Assembly (NCBI RefSeq): GCF_033100135.1
Contig: NZ_CP136920.1
Location: forward strand, 1,178,001 to 1,242,000
Origin: Rubellicoccus peritrichatus
GTDB taxonomy: Bacteria > Verrucomicrobiota > Verrucomicrobiia > Opitutales > Cerasicoccaceae
Direction of reading: 5' to 3'
DNA: 64,000 bases
The translations under genes were made by a program, and so were the position numbers. Position 1 is the first letter of the stretch; each line of letters starts with the position of its first letter. Below the pieces are notes generated by a model that did no database searches, was not told the DNA's origin, and saw only the letters and a list, made by a program, of their open reading frames with translations. Below, piece by piece: positions 7,639 to 56,127 of the stretch.

Positions 7639-9117
7639 TTACAATGTATACTTCAAAAGCTTCTTTCCGTGGGCGATAGTGAGGTGGTTACCGCCATCCT
7701 TACGTTCAGACTTCTTGGTTTGCCCGATGACGTCGGCTTCGAGACCGAATGAACGGATGAGTGTCAGCAGCTTTTTTGCATCGCTTTTCTTACAGAAGAC
7801 TTCAAGGCGGTGACCCATGTTGTAGACCTGGTACATTTCCTTCGTAGTGGTACCACTGGCCTTTTGGATGGCTTTGAAGATCGGAGGAATCGGCATGAAG
7901 TTATCTTTCACAAAATGTACGCCGCGGCCGAAGCGGAGGCACTTGGTTTGTCCGCCGCCTGAGCAGTGGACGAGTCCGCGAATAGAGTCCGAGTATTCGG
8001 CCAGCATTTTGGCAACAACCGGTGCGTAAGTCCGGGTTGGACTGAGCAAGGCCTGGCCTACGGTTAAGGAGCTGCCCGGCAGAGGATCGGCCATACGGTA
8101 TGGACCACAATAGACGAGTGACTTGTCGGTGTTCTTGTCGTAGGTTTCAGGGAATTTTTTGCGGTAGTAAGGCGAGAGTAGATCATGCCGGGCACTGGTC
8201 AGGCCATTGCTGCCGATGCCGCTATTTTCGCCTTCTTCGTAATCACAAGTTCCGGCTGATGAGATGCCAATGATGGCAAGGCCGGGTTTGATTTCCGCGC
8301 CGGTGATGACTTTATCTTTACGCATGACGGCAACGCAGCAGGAGTCAACCGTGACGGTTCCGGTGAGGTCGCCAACATCGGCGGTTTCACCACCACCGCT
8401 GTAAACATCGACGCCATAGCCCCGCATTTTTTGAAGAAATGCTTCGGTGCCTGAGATCAGTTCGGTCAGTGCTTCCGCCGGGAAATTGCGGGCATTGCGA
8501 TTGACTGTGCTGCTGAGCAGAATGCGATCAACAGCTCCTACACAGAGCAGATCGTCGATGTTCATCACGATGCTGTCCTGTGCGATACCACGAAATACGG
8601 CTGGGTCGCCAGTTTCGCGATACTGTAAATAGCCGAGGATCGATTTCGTGCCACTGCCGTCCGCATGGATGACGTTGCATTTGGACGGGTCGGCAGTGAG
8701 GTAGTCTTCGGTGATTTTGCAGAAAGCGCCCGGGAAAACACCTTGGTCAAGTTTATCAACTGCAGCGTGGACTTCAGTCTTGCTTGCGGAAACGCCGCGC
8801 GCTGCGTAACGGCCTTCGGGAGGCGATCCTTTTACCGCCGATGTCCCTTTCTTTGTCGTCGCCGCACTAGCCGGTTTTTTCTTACCCGCGACCCGATAGG
8901 CGCTGCGGGCCTTTGCGGAGACGAGACCTTTCGCCTCTAGTTGCTTGAATGCTTTGACGACTGTGTTTAGCGCAAGGTCGTGTCCATCAGCAATTTTGCG
9001 GAGGCTGGGGAGCTGCGTACCAGGTGCGAGCTTGCCGGTGTTGATGGCAAAGTGAATCTGGTCGGCGACCTGTTGGTAAACAGGAATCTTGTCTTTGGTT
9101 TGAATCTCAAGCTGCAT
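7639..9117 (-). CDS. purM: GntR-type DNA-binding domain fused to AIR synthase (PurM)
   Basis: 492 residues from ATG 9117 ([10 protein letters not shown]); the frame stays open upstream but this is where the GntR domain begins. Residues 8-77 are a winged helix of the GntR/YtrA type ([48 protein letters not shown]). Residues 78-105 are a basic, Ala/Ser-rich linker. From about 106 to the end is phosphoribosylformylglycinamidine cyclo-ligase of the type seen in Bacteroidetes: [64 protein letters not shown]. That enzyme closes formylglycinamidine ribotide to AIR with ATP, step 5 of purine synthesis. PurM is normally about 345-390 residues without a DNA-binding domain. A perfect inverted repeat lies 22 bp upstream of the start, in the space shared with a divergent gene, so autoregulation by the enzyme itself is a reasonable inference. 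Confidence 0.9.
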
Positions 9118-9139
9118 GGGAATAATGATGTTGTTATCT

Positions 9140-9157
9140 GTATCATATGTATGATAC
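9140..9157. promoter_or_regulatory. Perfect inverted repeat, candidate operator of the GntR-PurM fusion
   Basis: Seen directly: GTATCATA-TG-TATGATAC, two exact 8-bp arms around a 2-bp centre. It lies between the divergent starts of the GntR-PurM gene (9117) and the methyltransferase (9168). Length and symmetry fit a GntR-family dimer site. Each arm also contains TATGAT, a good -10 hexamer, read outward in opposite directions, so the site may overlap two promoters. Operator function is inferred from position and symmetry only. Confidence 0.65.
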
Positions 9158-9167
9158 AAGAGGTCAA

Positions 9168-9890
9168 ATGAATTCAGAAAAAACAGAGAAATCGACTGTT
9201 GAAGAGATTCGGGCTCGTTTTGATGCCGATGTCGAGCGTTTTTCTAATTTGAGTATTGGGCAGGAGGCAGCTATGGATTCTGCATTGTGCATGGAGCTGA
9301 TTGCAGATGCTGCTGCCGCAGTAACACCGAGGGCCAGTGCCGTTTTGGATATTGGCTGCGGTGCAGGCAACTATACCCTGATGTTGCTACAGCGTTTAAG
9401 GGGGCTGAATTGCACTTTGCTTGATTTGAGTCAGCCGATGCTGGAGCGTGCGAGTGAGCGAGTTGACGCATTTGGTGCTGGTTCGGTTTCCGTGATTCAA
9501 GCGGATGTGCGTGATGCCGATTTTGAAGCAGGCTCTTTTGATATCATCCTGGCTGCTGCTGTCTTGCATCACCTACGGAGTGATGAGGAATGGCGCGAGG
9601 TTTTTACCAAACTTTATCAATGGCTGAGGCCAGGGGGCGCTATTTGGATCTATGATATGACCCGTGCGGCTATTCATCAGCTTGATGCTTTGAAGCAGGA
9701 GCGTTACAGTGCCTACTTGATGGGCTTACAGGGAGAAGAATATCGGGACAAGGTCTTCGCTTATATTGAGAAGGAGGACACGCCGCATTCATTGCCTTTT
9801 CAATTGGATCTACTGAGAGAAGTTGGTTTCAGCGCTGTTGAAGTGCTTCACAAGAATGGTCCGTTCGCGGCCTTTGGGGCAATGAAGTAA
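9168..9890 (+). CDS. Class I SAM-dependent methyltransferase
   Basis: 240 residues from ATG 9168, chosen because AGAGGT at 9159-9164 is a good ribosome-binding site; the earlier ATG at 9147 lies inside the palindrome. The Rossmann-fold SAM motifs are clear: motif [14 protein letters not shown], acidic end of beta2 in LLDLSQPML, motif [11 protein letters not shown], then [13 protein letters not shown] and the post-motif [12 protein letters not shown]. The substrate cannot be told; overall form is like small-molecule or CmoA-like methyltransferases. It is divergent from the GntR-PurM gene and shares the candidate operator, so it may be co-regulated with purine synthesis (inference). Confidence 0.85.
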
Positions 9891-10415: not shown

Positions 10416-11018
10416 TCAAATCCCGAGTTTGACCAATTCAGCCTTTAGGGCGTCGTGGTTTCTCGCGACTGGAAAGTCCGGATATTCGGCGGCAAATTGG
10501 TCAGCCGGGCAGTAGAGTATCCCGTGATCTGCGCTTTGCAGCATGGAAAGGTCGTTGTAGGAGTCGCCTGCCGCAATGATTCCGAAGTTGAGTGAACGCA
10601 GGGCCTCAACGGCTTTGCGCTTCTGGTCATCCTGCCGGAGTTTGTAACCAGTGACTCTTCCTTCCGGATCGAGGATTAGTTCATGGCAGAACAGGGTGGG
10701 AAACCCGAGTTGCGCCATCAGTGGGCTGGCAAATTGTGCGAAGGTATCTGAAAGTATGATGACACGGGTTTGGGATGTCAGCCAACTTATGAATTCCTTG
10801 GCTCCATCAAGTGGGCTAAGTGTCCCAATGACCTCCTGGATTTTTGGCAAGCGGATGTCGTGCTTGGCCAGGATATCTAACCGGTAGTGCATGAGCTTGT
10901 CATAGTCCGGTTCGTCCCGCGTGGTGCGCATGAGGGCTTCGACACCGGTTTCGGCAGCGACGGCTTTCCAGATCTCAGGTATGAGGACGCCTTCCAGGTC
11001 GAGACAAACAATATTCAT
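10416..11018 (-). CDS. thrH: ThrH: phosphoserine phosphatase / phosphoserine:homoserine phosphotransferase
   Basis: A 200-residue HAD-superfamily protein matching the ThrH family over its length. Motif I is CLDLEGVLIPEIW (Asp nucleophile and second Asp replaced by Glu as in ThrH), motif II is ILSDTFAQF, and motif IV is AAGDSYNDLSML. Other family segments are TTRDEPDYDKLM, GFPTLFCHELILD and YKLRQDDQKR. ThrH removes phosphate from phosphoserine and can pass it to homoserine, linking serine and threonine synthesis. Length is standard. Neighbours give no pathway context. Confidence 0.93.
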   Translation of the reverse strand: MNIVCLDLEGVLIPEIWKAVAAETGVEALMRTTRDEPDYDKLMHYRLDILAKHDIRLPKIQEVIGTLSPLDGAKEFISWLTSQTRVIILSDTFAQFASPLMAQLGFPTLFCHELILDPEGRVTGYKLRQDDQKRKAVEALRSLNFGIIAAGDSYNDLSMLQSADHGILYCPADQFAAEYPDFPVARNHDALKAELVKLGI

Positions 11019-39837: not shown

Positions 39838-41331
39838 ATGAGTTTGCTTAGAGAACATCCACTGGGGGAACCAGTCCCGGACACTGTCCATGCTGTCTGC
39901 GTCAGCCTGCCTAAAATGGCGGATGTTATCGGCTATGAAGAGAGGCATCCGGAAACCATGGCTGCAGTCAAGTTCGGATACCCACGGTTTGTTTTTCACG
40001 ACTATGTGGTCAAGGCTGCCAATCTCGCCGCAAAGCGTCATGATGTCGTAGGGCGGGCCGTTTACGCAGTGACTTCTGCTGCCGCCGCCTGGGCCTTGGC
40101 CGAATATGTCAGTGCCGATTCGCATGCGATTCTGCCCGAGGCGGATTTTGTCATGGTTCATTTTCCAGACACACCCGAAGTGCGTAAGCAGGCGAAAGCA
40201 TTTCTCCAGCACACTGGTGGTAGTATTTCATCGCGTCAGGCTGAAGACTACCTTCACGCCGCTGATCACAATTTTCCCATTCAGGAAGAGGACTCGTTTG
40301 CAGGTGACGAAGAGGCGCATGTACTGGGTGCGCTCCGTCAGTACATCGACAGCAAGCACCTCTACATTGCGAATTGTGGAATGAATGCCTTTTACGCCAC
40401 GATTCGGGCTGTCAGTGAAATGCAGCGTCCACGTGGTAAGACACTTTATCTTCAGCTTGGTTGGCTTTATCTCGATACACAAAAGGTTCTCAGTGAGCTC
40501 CTTCAATCCGGTGATGAGGTCATTGTTCAGCTCGACGTATTTGACCTCGAAGCAATCGATCAAATTTTTGAGGAGCATGGCGACAAGCTTGCTGCGGTGG
40601 TTACCGAGTTACCGACCAATCCCCTGGTGCAAACTCCGGACTTTGAACACCTCAGTGCTCTGTGTCAGAAGTATGATACAGTGCGAATCTTTGATCCCAG
40701 CGTTGCCGGGATTGCCAATGTCGATGCACTTCCATTCTGCGATGTACTGGTAACAAGCCTGACGAAGTACGCCGCTTCACAGGCCGATGTTATGATAGGA
40801 GCTGTTGCAGTGAACGAAGGCTCTGTCTTTGCTGATGAATTGGCTCCGGCAATTCGGCGCTTGGTGGAGCCGCCTTATCCCCGTGACCTTGCGCGCTTGG
40901 CGGCGCAGATTGATGAGATGCCGCAGGTTGTTGCTCAACAAAATGAAAACGCCGCGAAGGTCGTTGAATATCTCGAAGCCCATCCTGCGGTTGGTAAGGT
41001 TTTTCATCCGAAGAAGAGTGACTCAGCAAAGCACTTTTCAGAGCTGGCTCGAACCGATGCTTCGCTTGGATGCATTGTGACTTTTGAATTGGAGAAGCCG
41101 CTGGTTGATTTTTATGATAAATCTACTGTGGTTAAGGGACCGAGTTTTGGGACGGATTACACGATGATGTGCCCTTTTCTTTACCTGGCACATTATGATT
41201 TGGTTTCGAACGATTTCGGACGTGCTTATTTAAAGGAACGTGGGCTGAATCCCGAGTTGATTCGCTTGTCTATTGGGACAGAACCTTTCGAAGAAATCCA
41301 GGCTGCACTTGAGGCAGGGCTGAGTGATTAG
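39838..41331 (+). CDS. Cystathionine gamma-synthase-like enzyme of the fungal (Str2/Met-7) type
   Basis: 497 residues from ATG 39838, one base after the preceding stop. The first 110 residues match the N-terminal region of fungal cystathionine gamma-synthases: LGEPVPDTVHAVCVSLP, VIGYEERHPE, KFGYPRFVFHD. The remainder is a fold I Cys/Met-metabolism enzyme, with substrate/PLP segments NCGMNAFYATIRAV, ELPTNPLVQTPD, DPSVAGIANV and PLP Lys310 in SLTKYAAS. The enzyme joins cysteine with an activated homoserine to make cystathionine for methionine synthesis. Ordinary bacterial MetB is about 380 residues and lacks the N-terminal part. Last gene of the 37091-41331 unit. Confidence 0.85.
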   Translation: MSLLREHPLGEPVPDTVHAVCVSLPKMADVIGYEERHPETMAAVKFGYPRFVFHDYVVKAANLAAKRHDVVGRAVYAVTSAAAAWALAEYVSADSHAILPEADFVMVHFPDTPEVRKQAKAFLQHTGGSISSRQAEDYLHAADHNFPIQEEDSFAGDEEAHVLGALRQYIDSKHLYIANCGMNAFYATIRAVSEMQRPRGKTLYLQLGWLYLDTQKVLSELLQSGDEVIVQLDVFDLEAIDQIFEEHGDKLAAVVTELPTNPLVQTPDFEHLSALCQKYDTVRIFDPSVAGIANVDALPFCDVLVTSLTKYAASQADVMIGAVAVNEGSVFADELAPAIRRLVEPPYPRDLARLAAQIDEMPQVVAQQNENAAKVVEYLEAHPAVGKVFHPKKSDSAKHFSELARTDASLGCIVTFELEKPLVDFYDKSTVVKGPSFGTDYTMMCPFLYLAHYDLVSNDFGRAYLKERGLNPELIRLSIGTEPFEEIQAALEAGLSD

Positions 41332-53622: not shown

Positions 53623-56127
53623 ATGAACGATTTTAATGATATACAACCCGACGATCCAATCCTGACGGCTTTTGCCCTTGGGGAGATCGATGATGAAAAC
53701 GAGCGACTGGCCCTTCAGAAACTCATCGAAGCCAATCCTGAGTTGGCCGAGGCAGTTGAGGAAATTCGCAGCACTGCCTCGTTGCTTGGACAGGCCTTTG
53801 CTGAGGAAAGCACTTCAACAGAAGGCCCCAAGCCCATACTGTCGAGTGAAAGCTCAGAAACAGTAACCTCTCACGATCAGAAGAAATTTGTGCGTTTTCC
53901 AGCGTGGATCGGACTCGTCGCGGCTGCGGCCGTGGCTTTGATGATTGGGATCGTGAGTTTCACTCCGGAAGAAAACCACTTGGTGCAAACAGCAGATATG
54001 CAATTTCAACCACCGGAGGTTGCAATCGAATCAGAGCCTACTGCGGAGGAAAGTTTAAAGCCCTTTTCTGAGGTTCGGAAATCGAATGTGAACACAGAGA
54101 TTGCTCTGCAATCCCAACAACTGTCAGTTGATGGAGACTTTGCTCTATTTGAGGAACATGAAGCTCCTGCTTCAAATGGTGCGAGTATAATCCCAAAAGA
54201 GGAAATCTTAGTGAATCAGGGAAATCTTAAGAGGGGATTGGGTGCATCGTATTTCGCTGGGACGGATTCTTTCGCATTGGGGGATTCAGGCATGATCTCA
54301 TCTGATGCTTCATCTACCTCTGTGACCACTCCAGCCACAGAGCCTGTCGCGATTGCAGGGACGCTAATTGCTACTAAAGACAATCAAGTTTCTCAAGAGC
54401 GCTTATACAGCTACTATGGTGATTCCAGTGGCGCAGTAACTGCCGGCGAATCTTTGGCTCAATTGCCACCAGCCCAACCTAAGTCAACGGTTGCCGTTGA
54501 AAGCCGGCTTGGAGAAGTGCGTAAAGAGCATGGTCGCGGATTTGGCCAGGCTGGTCGTCTTGGATTTCAGATGGAGAGTTCGTCTGTTGACTACTTTGGA
54601 GTTAAAGCGAGCCCCGAGCCGGTGCTGCCTCCTCCCGCTCCAAGCTATCGCCAGCAAGATGGACAATCCAATACCGAGGGTTACGAGGAAATCACCGACA
54701 ACGCATTCGTCTCTCCGGTGGTCGAGCCGTTGAGTACTTTCAGTATCGATGTCGATACTGCCAGTTATGCCAATGTGCGCCGATTCATTAATCAGGGTAA
54801 TTTGCCGCCACCTGATGCCGTTCGGATTGAGGAATTGATCAACTACTTTCCTTACGACTATGCAGCTCCCGGGCCGGAAGATGAACATCCGATTGCCATT
54901 CATTTGGATGCGGCTCCCGCTCCTTGGGCACCGAAACACCAGCTCGTTCGCATAGGTTTGAAAGCGCGCGAAGTGGATTGGAAGGATCGTCCAGCCTCAA
55001 ACCTTGTTTTCCTGCTGGATGTTTCAGGATCAATGAACCGCCCGAACAAGCTGCCACTGGTTAAAGAAGCCCTTGGTAAGCTGATAAGGCGTTTGGATGA
55101 GCGGGATCGTGTGGCGATTGTGGTTTATGCCGGGGCCAGTGGTTTGGTTCTGCCGGCTACGACTGCCAACAACACTGAGACAATTCTGCATGCCCTTGAT
55201 AATCTCAAAGCGGGTGGTTCCACAAATGGAGGGCAGGGGATTGAGCTCGCTTACAAGACGGCGAAAGAGAATTTCCTCTCAGTTGGTAATAATCGCATCA
55301 TTCTCTGCACTGATGGTGATTTTAATGTAGGCACCACAGATAAAGGGCAATTAACCGATCTGGTTGCCGCTGAAGCCAAAGATGGCGTCTATTTGACGGT
55401 GTTGGGCTTTGGAATGGGCAATTTAAAGGATGACATGCTCGAAACATTATCGAACAAAGGCAATGGCAACTACGGCTACATTGATTCTGCCAAAGAGGCC
55501 CGCAAAGTTTTTGTCGAACAGGCCACAGGTACGCTTCTGACTGTGGCAAAGGACTTAAAGATTCAGGTCGAATTCAATCCGAACCACGTTGGCGCCTATC
55601 GTTTAATTGGTTACGAAAACCGGAAACTTGCCGCTCAGGATTTCAACGATGACAAAAAGGACGCCGGTGAGGTTGGTGCCGGTCATACCGTGACTGCACT
55701 CTACGAGGTTATTCCTGCTGGCCAAAAGACGGGTGTTCCGAGTGTCGATCCATTGAAGTATCAGCTAGCGGCTATGGCTGATAGTGTGGATGGCCAGATT
55801 GAAAGTGACTCAGAAATTTCAAGTGAACTTCTGACGGCCAAGCTTCGTTACAAGTTACCTGATAATGACACCTCAACGAAGTTGGAGCAACCACTCAGCG
55901 CAAATGCGGTTCAATCCAGTTTCAAAGATGCCTCGGCAGACTTTCGTTTCGCGGCAGCAGTCGCTGAGTTCGGAATGGTGTTACGGAATTCGCCTTACAA
56001 GGAGCTTTCCAATCTGACTCAGGCTAAAGATATTGCGGAAGATGCTCTTGGAAAAGATGCTGGCGGCCATCGCGGAGATTTTGTTGATCTGGTGGAGAAA
56101 GCTATTTCGCTTACTCCAGTTGAGTGA
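53623..56127 (+). CDS. Membrane-anchored anti-sigma/VWA-domain protein (YfbK-like)
   Basis: 834 residues from ATG 53623 with AGAGGA before it. Residues 1-50 (DDPILTAFALGEIDDENERL, LAEAVEEIRSTASLL) resemble the cytoplasmic anti-sigma part of such proteins. One membrane helix follows at about 92-113 (FPAWIGLVAAAAVALMIGIV). The long extracytoplasmic region has a low-complexity spacer, a vWF_A N-terminal segment (FSIDVDTASYANVRRFINQG, VRIEELINYFPYDY), and a VWA domain with intact MIDAS: DxSxS at 466-470 (DVSGS), Thr in GGSTNGGQG, and Asp in CTDGDFNVG. The C-terminal 200 residues match DUF3520. Metal-dependent binding outside the membrane could control release of the sigma factor. Confidence 0.9.
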   Translation: MNDFNDIQPDDPILTAFALGEIDDENERLALQKLIEANPELAEAVEEIRSTASLLGQAFAEESTSTEGPKPILSSESSETVTSHDQKKFVRFPAWIGLVAAAAVALMIGIVSFTPEENHLVQTADMQFQPPEVAIESEPTAEESLKPFSEVRKSNVNTEIALQSQQLSVDGDFALFEEHEAPASNGASIIPKEEILVNQGNLKRGLGASYFAGTDSFALGDSGMISSDASSTSVTTPATEPVAIAGTLIATKDNQVSQERLYSYYGDSSGAVTAGESLAQLPPAQPKSTVAVESRLGEVRKEHGRGFGQAGRLGFQMESSSVDYFGVKASPEPVLPPPAPSYRQQDGQSNTEGYEEITDNAFVSPVVEPLSTFSIDVDTASYANVRRFINQGNLPPPDAVRIEELINYFPYDYAAPGPEDEHPIAIHLDAAPAPWAPKHQLVRIGLKAREVDWKDRPASNLVFLLDVSGSMNRPNKLPLVKEALGKLIRRLDERDRVAIVVYAGASGLVLPATTANNTETILHALDNLKAGGSTNGGQGIELAYKTAKENFLSVGNNRIILCTDGDFNVGTTDKGQLTDLVAAEAKDGVYLTVLGFGMGNLKDDMLETLSNKGNGNYGYIDSAKEARKVFVEQATGTLLTVAKDLKIQVEFNPNHVGAYRLIGYENRKLAAQDFNDDKKDAGEVGAGHTVTALYEVIPAGQKTGVPSVDPLKYQLAAMADSVDGQIESDSEISSELLTAKLRYKLPDNDTSTKLEQPLSANAVQSSFKDASADFRFAAAVAEFGMVLRNSPYKELSNLTQAKDIAEDALGKDAGGHRGDFVDLVEKAISLTPVE

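Follow-up and report, generated by a model that had tools for sequence, protein, structure and literature searches.

Within the window, a 64,000-nucleotide stretch that corresponds to positions 1,178,001–1,242,000 of the single-contig 5.8 Mb genome of Rubellicoccus peritrichatus (G000), a single uninterrupted reading frame encodes a YtrA-like GntR winged helix-turn-helix, a basic linker and a complete long-type PurM (AIR synthase), in agreement with the preliminary description of this DNA (Table 1). Pfam searches placed GntR at residues 14–76 (E = 3.6e-12), AIRS at residues 143–264 (E = 1e-8) and AIRS_C at residues 277–472 (E = 5.2e-10) of the fusion, all above the gathering scores, and the structures 3mdo_A and 3kiz_A aligned with the PurM part over 373 and 382 query residues (E = 1.9e-124 and 3.1e-122, respectively). 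The fusion missed the equivalog cut-off of the NCBIfam purM model TIGR00878 (104.9 versus 236.35 bits), and its best NCBIfam match besides purM was PdxR (62.7 bits, residues 12–127). The aminotransferase-like C-terminal domain of the MocR type was absent from the fusion in the Pfam search; also absent, from this and the two further fusions described below, was the short C-terminal helical dimerisation domain of the YtrA type, the winged helix being followed by a linker of 5–23 residues and then by PurM. An AlphaFold model built from a three-row alignment had a mean pLDDT of 41 and was useful for the winged helix only, where block pLDDT values were 63–85. The HAD-family hydrolase gene near the fusion looks like part of the ancestral purM neighbourhood, because several relatives have a similar HAD gene (identified by eye) immediately in front of an unfused purM.

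Table 1 Features of the GntR–PurM locus and related elements in the window
Feature	Position	Strand	Remarks
GntR–PurM fusion gene	7639..9117	-	492 aa plus stop at 7639-7641; ATG at 9117
YtrA-like GntR winged helix-turn-helix	8884..9117	-	Residues 1-78; predicted helices and wing
Basic Ala/Lys/Thr linker	8815..8883	-	Residues 79-101, 23 aa
Long-type PurM (AIR synthase)	7642..8814	-	Residues 102-492
Candidate operator	9138..9159	.	One mismatch from CTGTATCA-N6-TGATACAG; ends 20 bp before ATG
-10-like hexamer TATGAT	9142..9147	-	Inside the operator, right half; by eye, from comparison with the G002 fusion
-35-like TTGACC	9162..9167	-	14 nt from TATGAT (15 in G002); by eye
Divergent class I SAM methyltransferase	9168..9890	+	Likely start 9168, by eye
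HAD-family hydrolase	10416..11018	-	
Second dispersed-palindrome copy in the window	40660..40681	.	CTGTGTCA-GAAGTA-TGATACAG, inside coding sequence

An assembly error, which the preliminary description had named as the alternative should close relatives lack a GntR–PurM fusion, was ruled out as the source of the joined gene by two further fusions. One of these is encoded on contig JAUIHT010000014.1 of a Verrucomicrobiia MAG (Co_bin.226; G002) and is 77% identical to the window fusion, with a linker 4 residues shorter; the other, a 474-aa protein encoded on contig JAJSAM010000036.1 of a Planctomycetota MAG, is 72% identical and has a linker 18 residues shorter. R40 and N51 of the GntR domain are invariant across the three. 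Genome surveys revealed that the fusion is rare. Among the ten genomes of the window's family, two (G000 and G002) have the fusion and eight have an unfused long PurM. Across 372 genomes of the order, a threshold of E = 1e-20 gave matches in 181, and among those listed only the matches of G000 and G002 aligned from residue 1. The fusion was confined to G000 in a phylum sample of 387 genomes (which included G000 and not G002), and to the planctomycete genome itself in the 99 genomes around and including it, in both cases among the matches listed. A scan of a named genome collection for the GntR domain with two peptide patterns, which would miss fusions that carry neither pattern, returned 40 loci, including the window fusion and the planctomycete one. 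We found no GntR–PurM fusion in the titles and abstract beginnings of the open-licence papers listed by literature searches, and as far as these searches reach the architecture is new.

In a PurM tree of 63 rows, all three fusions fell into one small group together with the window's family, and because they belong to one small purM clade they are not fully independent of each other. The best trees left the three unjoined; they formed one clade in 26% of the bootstrap trees with 63 rows and in 7% of those with 21 rows, and a single origin was not rejected (p-AU 0.145, 21-row tree). The Planctomycetota MAG carries a PurM fusion of verrucomicrobial kin, and no other PurM was found there; this copy could have arisen by transfer or could reflect a mis-binned contig. 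We rejected a viral origin, as a scan of viral contigs gave 25 pattern matches with no relative among them.

The product of PurM, a dimeric enzyme, is AIR, from which both purines and thiamine are made. Searches with the AIRS_C profile recovered only PurL (in two stretches) and the fusion from G000 and G002, and PurL, the fusion and SelD-, HypE- and ThiL-like proteins (named by eye) from the planctomycete genome. No AIR synthase other than the fusion was thus found in any of the three genomes, each of which also contains PurL, and this gene content argues strongly that the fusion still works as such an enzyme.

The preliminary description had also located a perfect 8+2+8 inverted repeat 22 bp upstream of the fusion start. 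This repeat, GTATCATA-TG-TATGATAC, is indeed exact at 9140-9157 and ends 22 bp before the ATG; its perfect arms, however, are 9 bp long (9+2+9 at 9139-9158), and what the other fusions have in common with it is a different unit: with G002 the agreement extends to CTGTATCA-N6-TGATACAG (9138-9159 in the window, one mismatch), whereas with the planctomycete it is limited to the outer CTGTA-N12-TACAG. Comparison of the three upstream regions revealed TTGTATCA-TACATA-TGATACAG in the window (ending 20 bp before the ATG), CTGTATCA-CGGGTA-TGATACAG in G002 (ending 15 bp before the ATG) and CTGTACCC-TCCACA-GGGTACAG in the planctomycete (ending 16 bp before the ATG), the common unit being the 22-bp palindrome CTGTA-N12-TACAG, with one mismatch in the window. 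The expectation that the palindrome would recur upstream of orthologous fusions was therefore borne out in its geometry, which is the same in all three, but not in its letters: those of GTATCATA do not recur in the planctomycete, which lacks the GTATCA..TGATAC core and has other inner bases. In a comparison of the regions upstream of purM, 65 distinct sequences in all (3 from fused and 62 from unfused genes, loci with less than 300 bp of upstream sequence and duplicates having been dropped), CTGTA-N12-TACAG at no more than one mismatch was found upstream of all three fusions versus one of the unfused genes, the last being an imperfect palindrome. The exact motif occurs once in the 4.5 Mb planctomycete genome, at the fusion. 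A perfect palindrome with 8-bp arms is present in each of the three fusion promoters, and such palindromes, with spacers of 0–10, are expected at 0.014 per 60 bp from 400 kb sampled in the window's genome.

Conservation between the window and G002 covers the arms of the operator, TTGACC and the sequence that follows the right arm, although the two genomes differ at most synonymous sites (43% and 40% of codons identical where the amino acid is, in two genes). TTGACC was seen in these two and not in the planctomycete. A promoter scan that required a spacer of 16–18 nt called neither TATGAT nor TTGACC, the spacer between them being short, at 14–15 nt. When the letters of the palindrome were searched in the literature, none of the matches listed looked related. 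In the window genome the palindrome also lies close to the start of the divergent methyltransferase, which had initially been proposed as a co-regulated neighbour; this gene, however, adjoins one of the three fusions and was not found beside the other two. Because it stands beside one fusion only, a shared regulon is unsupported, and we dropped the methyltransferase as a partner of the fusion.

Copies of the palindrome are dispersed through the two verrucomicrobial fusion genomes. GTATCA-N6-TGATAC at no more than one mismatch occurred 23 times in G000 and 34 times in G002, versus 3 and 3 times for the backward pattern, a control that preserves composition and not codon frame. At the same threshold, CTGTATCA-N6-TGATACAG was found 26 times in G002, 6 times in G000 and 0–2 times in each of the other 370 of the 372 order genomes, the same set that the fusion search covered; at up to two mismatches, the eight other genomes of the family had 0, 0, 0, 1, 4, 2, 5 and 3 copies. 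A palindrome common to genomes in general was rejected on these counts, dispersal being true only of the two verrucomicrobial genomes with a fusion. Since G000 and G002 belong to one family, their copy-rich state may be one evolutionary event. A search of the literature for dispersed repeats returned nothing bacterial by title among the matches listed. Elsewhere in the window, at 54741-54760, lies another perfect palindrome, CAGTATCGATGTCGATACTG, which has the GTATC/GATAC half-sites of the operator at another spacing.

Several ordinary explanations of the dispersed copies fared poorly. A simple gene caller placed 18 of the 27 copies found in G002 at up to two mismatches wholly within genes, 6 across a gene start or end and 3 in intergenic DNA, one of which adjoins 2 kb of sequence in which no gene was called; the coding density was 0.91 in the stretches examined, and the promoter site of the window was counted as a promoter, although a TTG extension by the gene caller made it coding. 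The large share wholly inside genes disfavours ordinary operators. Coding coincidence was ruled out by codon expectation, as in-frame copies encoding LYxxxDT (at no more than one mismatch) numbered 15 in G002 and 5 in G000, versus 0.37 and 0.19 expected from sampled codon use and peptides. Insertions are likewise disfavoured, as the host peptides that were compared with relatives (MurC, methylmalonyl-CoA mutase and xanthine dehydrogenase) look unbroken. Two copies are common to orthologues of G000 and G002: that in AckA has all 7 codons kept, as in 1.3% of the windows of that gene, and that in a protein of approximately 2,100 residues has 4 of 7 kept, which is unremarkable.

A parS-like pair of TGTTCCACGTGGAACA, 48 bp apart, was observed at 1,039,572-1,039,635 of G000 and at C42:519,297-519,360 of G002. 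The G000 pair (1.04 Mb) is near a turn of the GC skew, and the window lies approximately 0.14 Mb away from it. None of the six G000 copies, counting that at the promoter, is more than 1.15 Mb away from the pair (KS p 0.006, in a post hoc test), and the parS contig of G002 carries 7 copies in 0.59 Mb; the six G000 copies with two mismatches showed no bias toward the pair. The dispersed copies are perhaps origin-biased.

We consider it likely that the fusion is a bifunctional enzyme–regulator, in which GntR domains held together by the PurM dimer would bind the palindrome in its own promoter and feed back on its own transcription. The PurM half would make AIR, and its dimer would hold two GntR winged helices; because the short helical domain of YtrA-type regulators is missing here, the PurM dimer probably replaces it for dimerisation. 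The paired winged helices would then bind the 22-bp CTGTA-N12-TACAG unit just upstream of their own start. This unit fits the operator form of YtrA-type regulators, which, in a study of this subfamily, typically bind 24 bp palindromes with distant half-sites, for example GGTG-N16-CACC, and Arg42 and Asn51, proposed there as DNA contact residues of the Sulfolobus protein, seem by eye to match R40 and N51 of the fusions (PMC6746942). Because the palindrome appears to cover the likely -10 element in the window and in G002, binding should repress, occlusion being the simplest reading. In the resulting feedback loop, the amount of the enzyme, and probably its ligand state, would set its own transcription; sensing of a ligand is plausible, and the choice among FGAM, ATP and AIR would be a guess. 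Of the regulation first proposed for this locus, the part that concerns the fusion itself stands, in that the enzyme is probably a regulator of its own gene, as the distribution of the palindrome geometry among fused and unfused purM promoters suggests, and the part that concerns the neighbouring methyltransferase does not.

Other readings would assign the two halves of the protein different roles. That the PurM half acts as a ligand sensor only, its catalysis lost as in MocR regulators, has a precedent in MocR proteins themselves, which combine GntR with an enzyme fold (PMC5320631 and PMC4944035), and would be in line with the missed purM cut-off; nevertheless, a sole AIR synthase in three PurL-holding genomes that remains close in sequence to unfused PurMs and to the solved long-type PurMs makes this reading very improbable. 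The winged helix could instead be an appendage that is passive or degenerate, with the palindrome belonging to another regulator, as might be expected from the rarity of the fusions (2 of the 372 order genomes, among the matches listed), from the spread of linker lengths and from a palindrome that two of the three genomes also have away from the fusion. We hold this to be improbable, given that the three fusions agree in GntR residues, R40 and N51 among them, that among purM genes the palindrome accompanies the fusion, and that the planctomycete, with its more distant GntR domain, also has different inner bases in its palindrome.

The dispersed copies bear on a further reading, in which GntR serves as a chromosome tether, the enzyme binding these palindromes as well as the promoter, with location or chromosome organisation as its main role on DNA and autoregulation secondary. 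The sites of RacA, Noc and SlmA would be the models for such a role. The high number of copies in G000 and G002 compared with the other 370 order genomes, their placement inside genes, their in-frame excess, the confinement of the G000 copies to the region around the parS-like pair and the density on the parS contig of G002 would all agree with a tether. Yet the palindrome is unique in the planctomycete fusion genome, the two dense genomes come from one family and perhaps from one event, and exact single copies of CTGTATCA-N6-TGATACAG also occur in the fusion-free genomes G004 and G006; the sites could, moreover, belong to another DNA-binding protein of the lineage, and the origin bias involves few sites and a test made after the pattern had been noticed. 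We therefore regard the tether as unlikely. About as unlikely is a form of it in which the fusion binds, in this lineage, approximately 6–26 palindromes through genes, denser near the origin and with its own promoter among the best sites, and so couples purine supply, physically or through regulation, to the chromosome.

The autoregulatory reading, which we prefer, can be set beside known systems. The long-type PurMs 3mdo and 3kiz share the whole enzyme domain with the fusion; unlike it, their chains (389 and 394 residues) correspond to the PurM part alone, the alignments starting at the first residue of each chain. PutA, NadR and BirA are trigger enzymes with DNA-binding domains, and like the fusion they join a metabolic enzyme to such a domain. 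Purine synthesis is usually under separate regulators or riboswitches. Among its regulators, PurR is of the LacI type in E. coli and of the PRT-fold type in B. subtilis; these proteins control purine genes, the B. subtilis type by an enzyme-like fold, but unlike the fusion they are not the biosynthetic enzyme itself. MocR, GabR and PdxR also join GntR to an enzyme fold, that of an aminotransferase, whereas the fusion contains a different enzyme, of which no other copy was found and which appears to be functional. The YtrA subfamily has a winged helix, as does the fusion, and a long palindrome with distant half-sites (PMC6746942), a form that the candidate operator of the fusion resembles, but has a short helical dimerisation domain where the fusion has an enzyme. 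BzdR likewise pairs an enzyme fold with a DNA-binding domain (PMC3602430). No trigger enzyme of the purine pathway with a DNA-binding domain was seen in the titles and abstract beginnings of the open-licence papers listed.

The excess of the same palindrome dispersed inside genes is a separate puzzle. The fusion itself exists in three natural versions, each with its matching palindrome, so that specificity, evolution and control by ligand can be tested directly, in a case in which the enzyme at the branch point of purine and thiamine synthesis seems to include a domain for binding its own operator.
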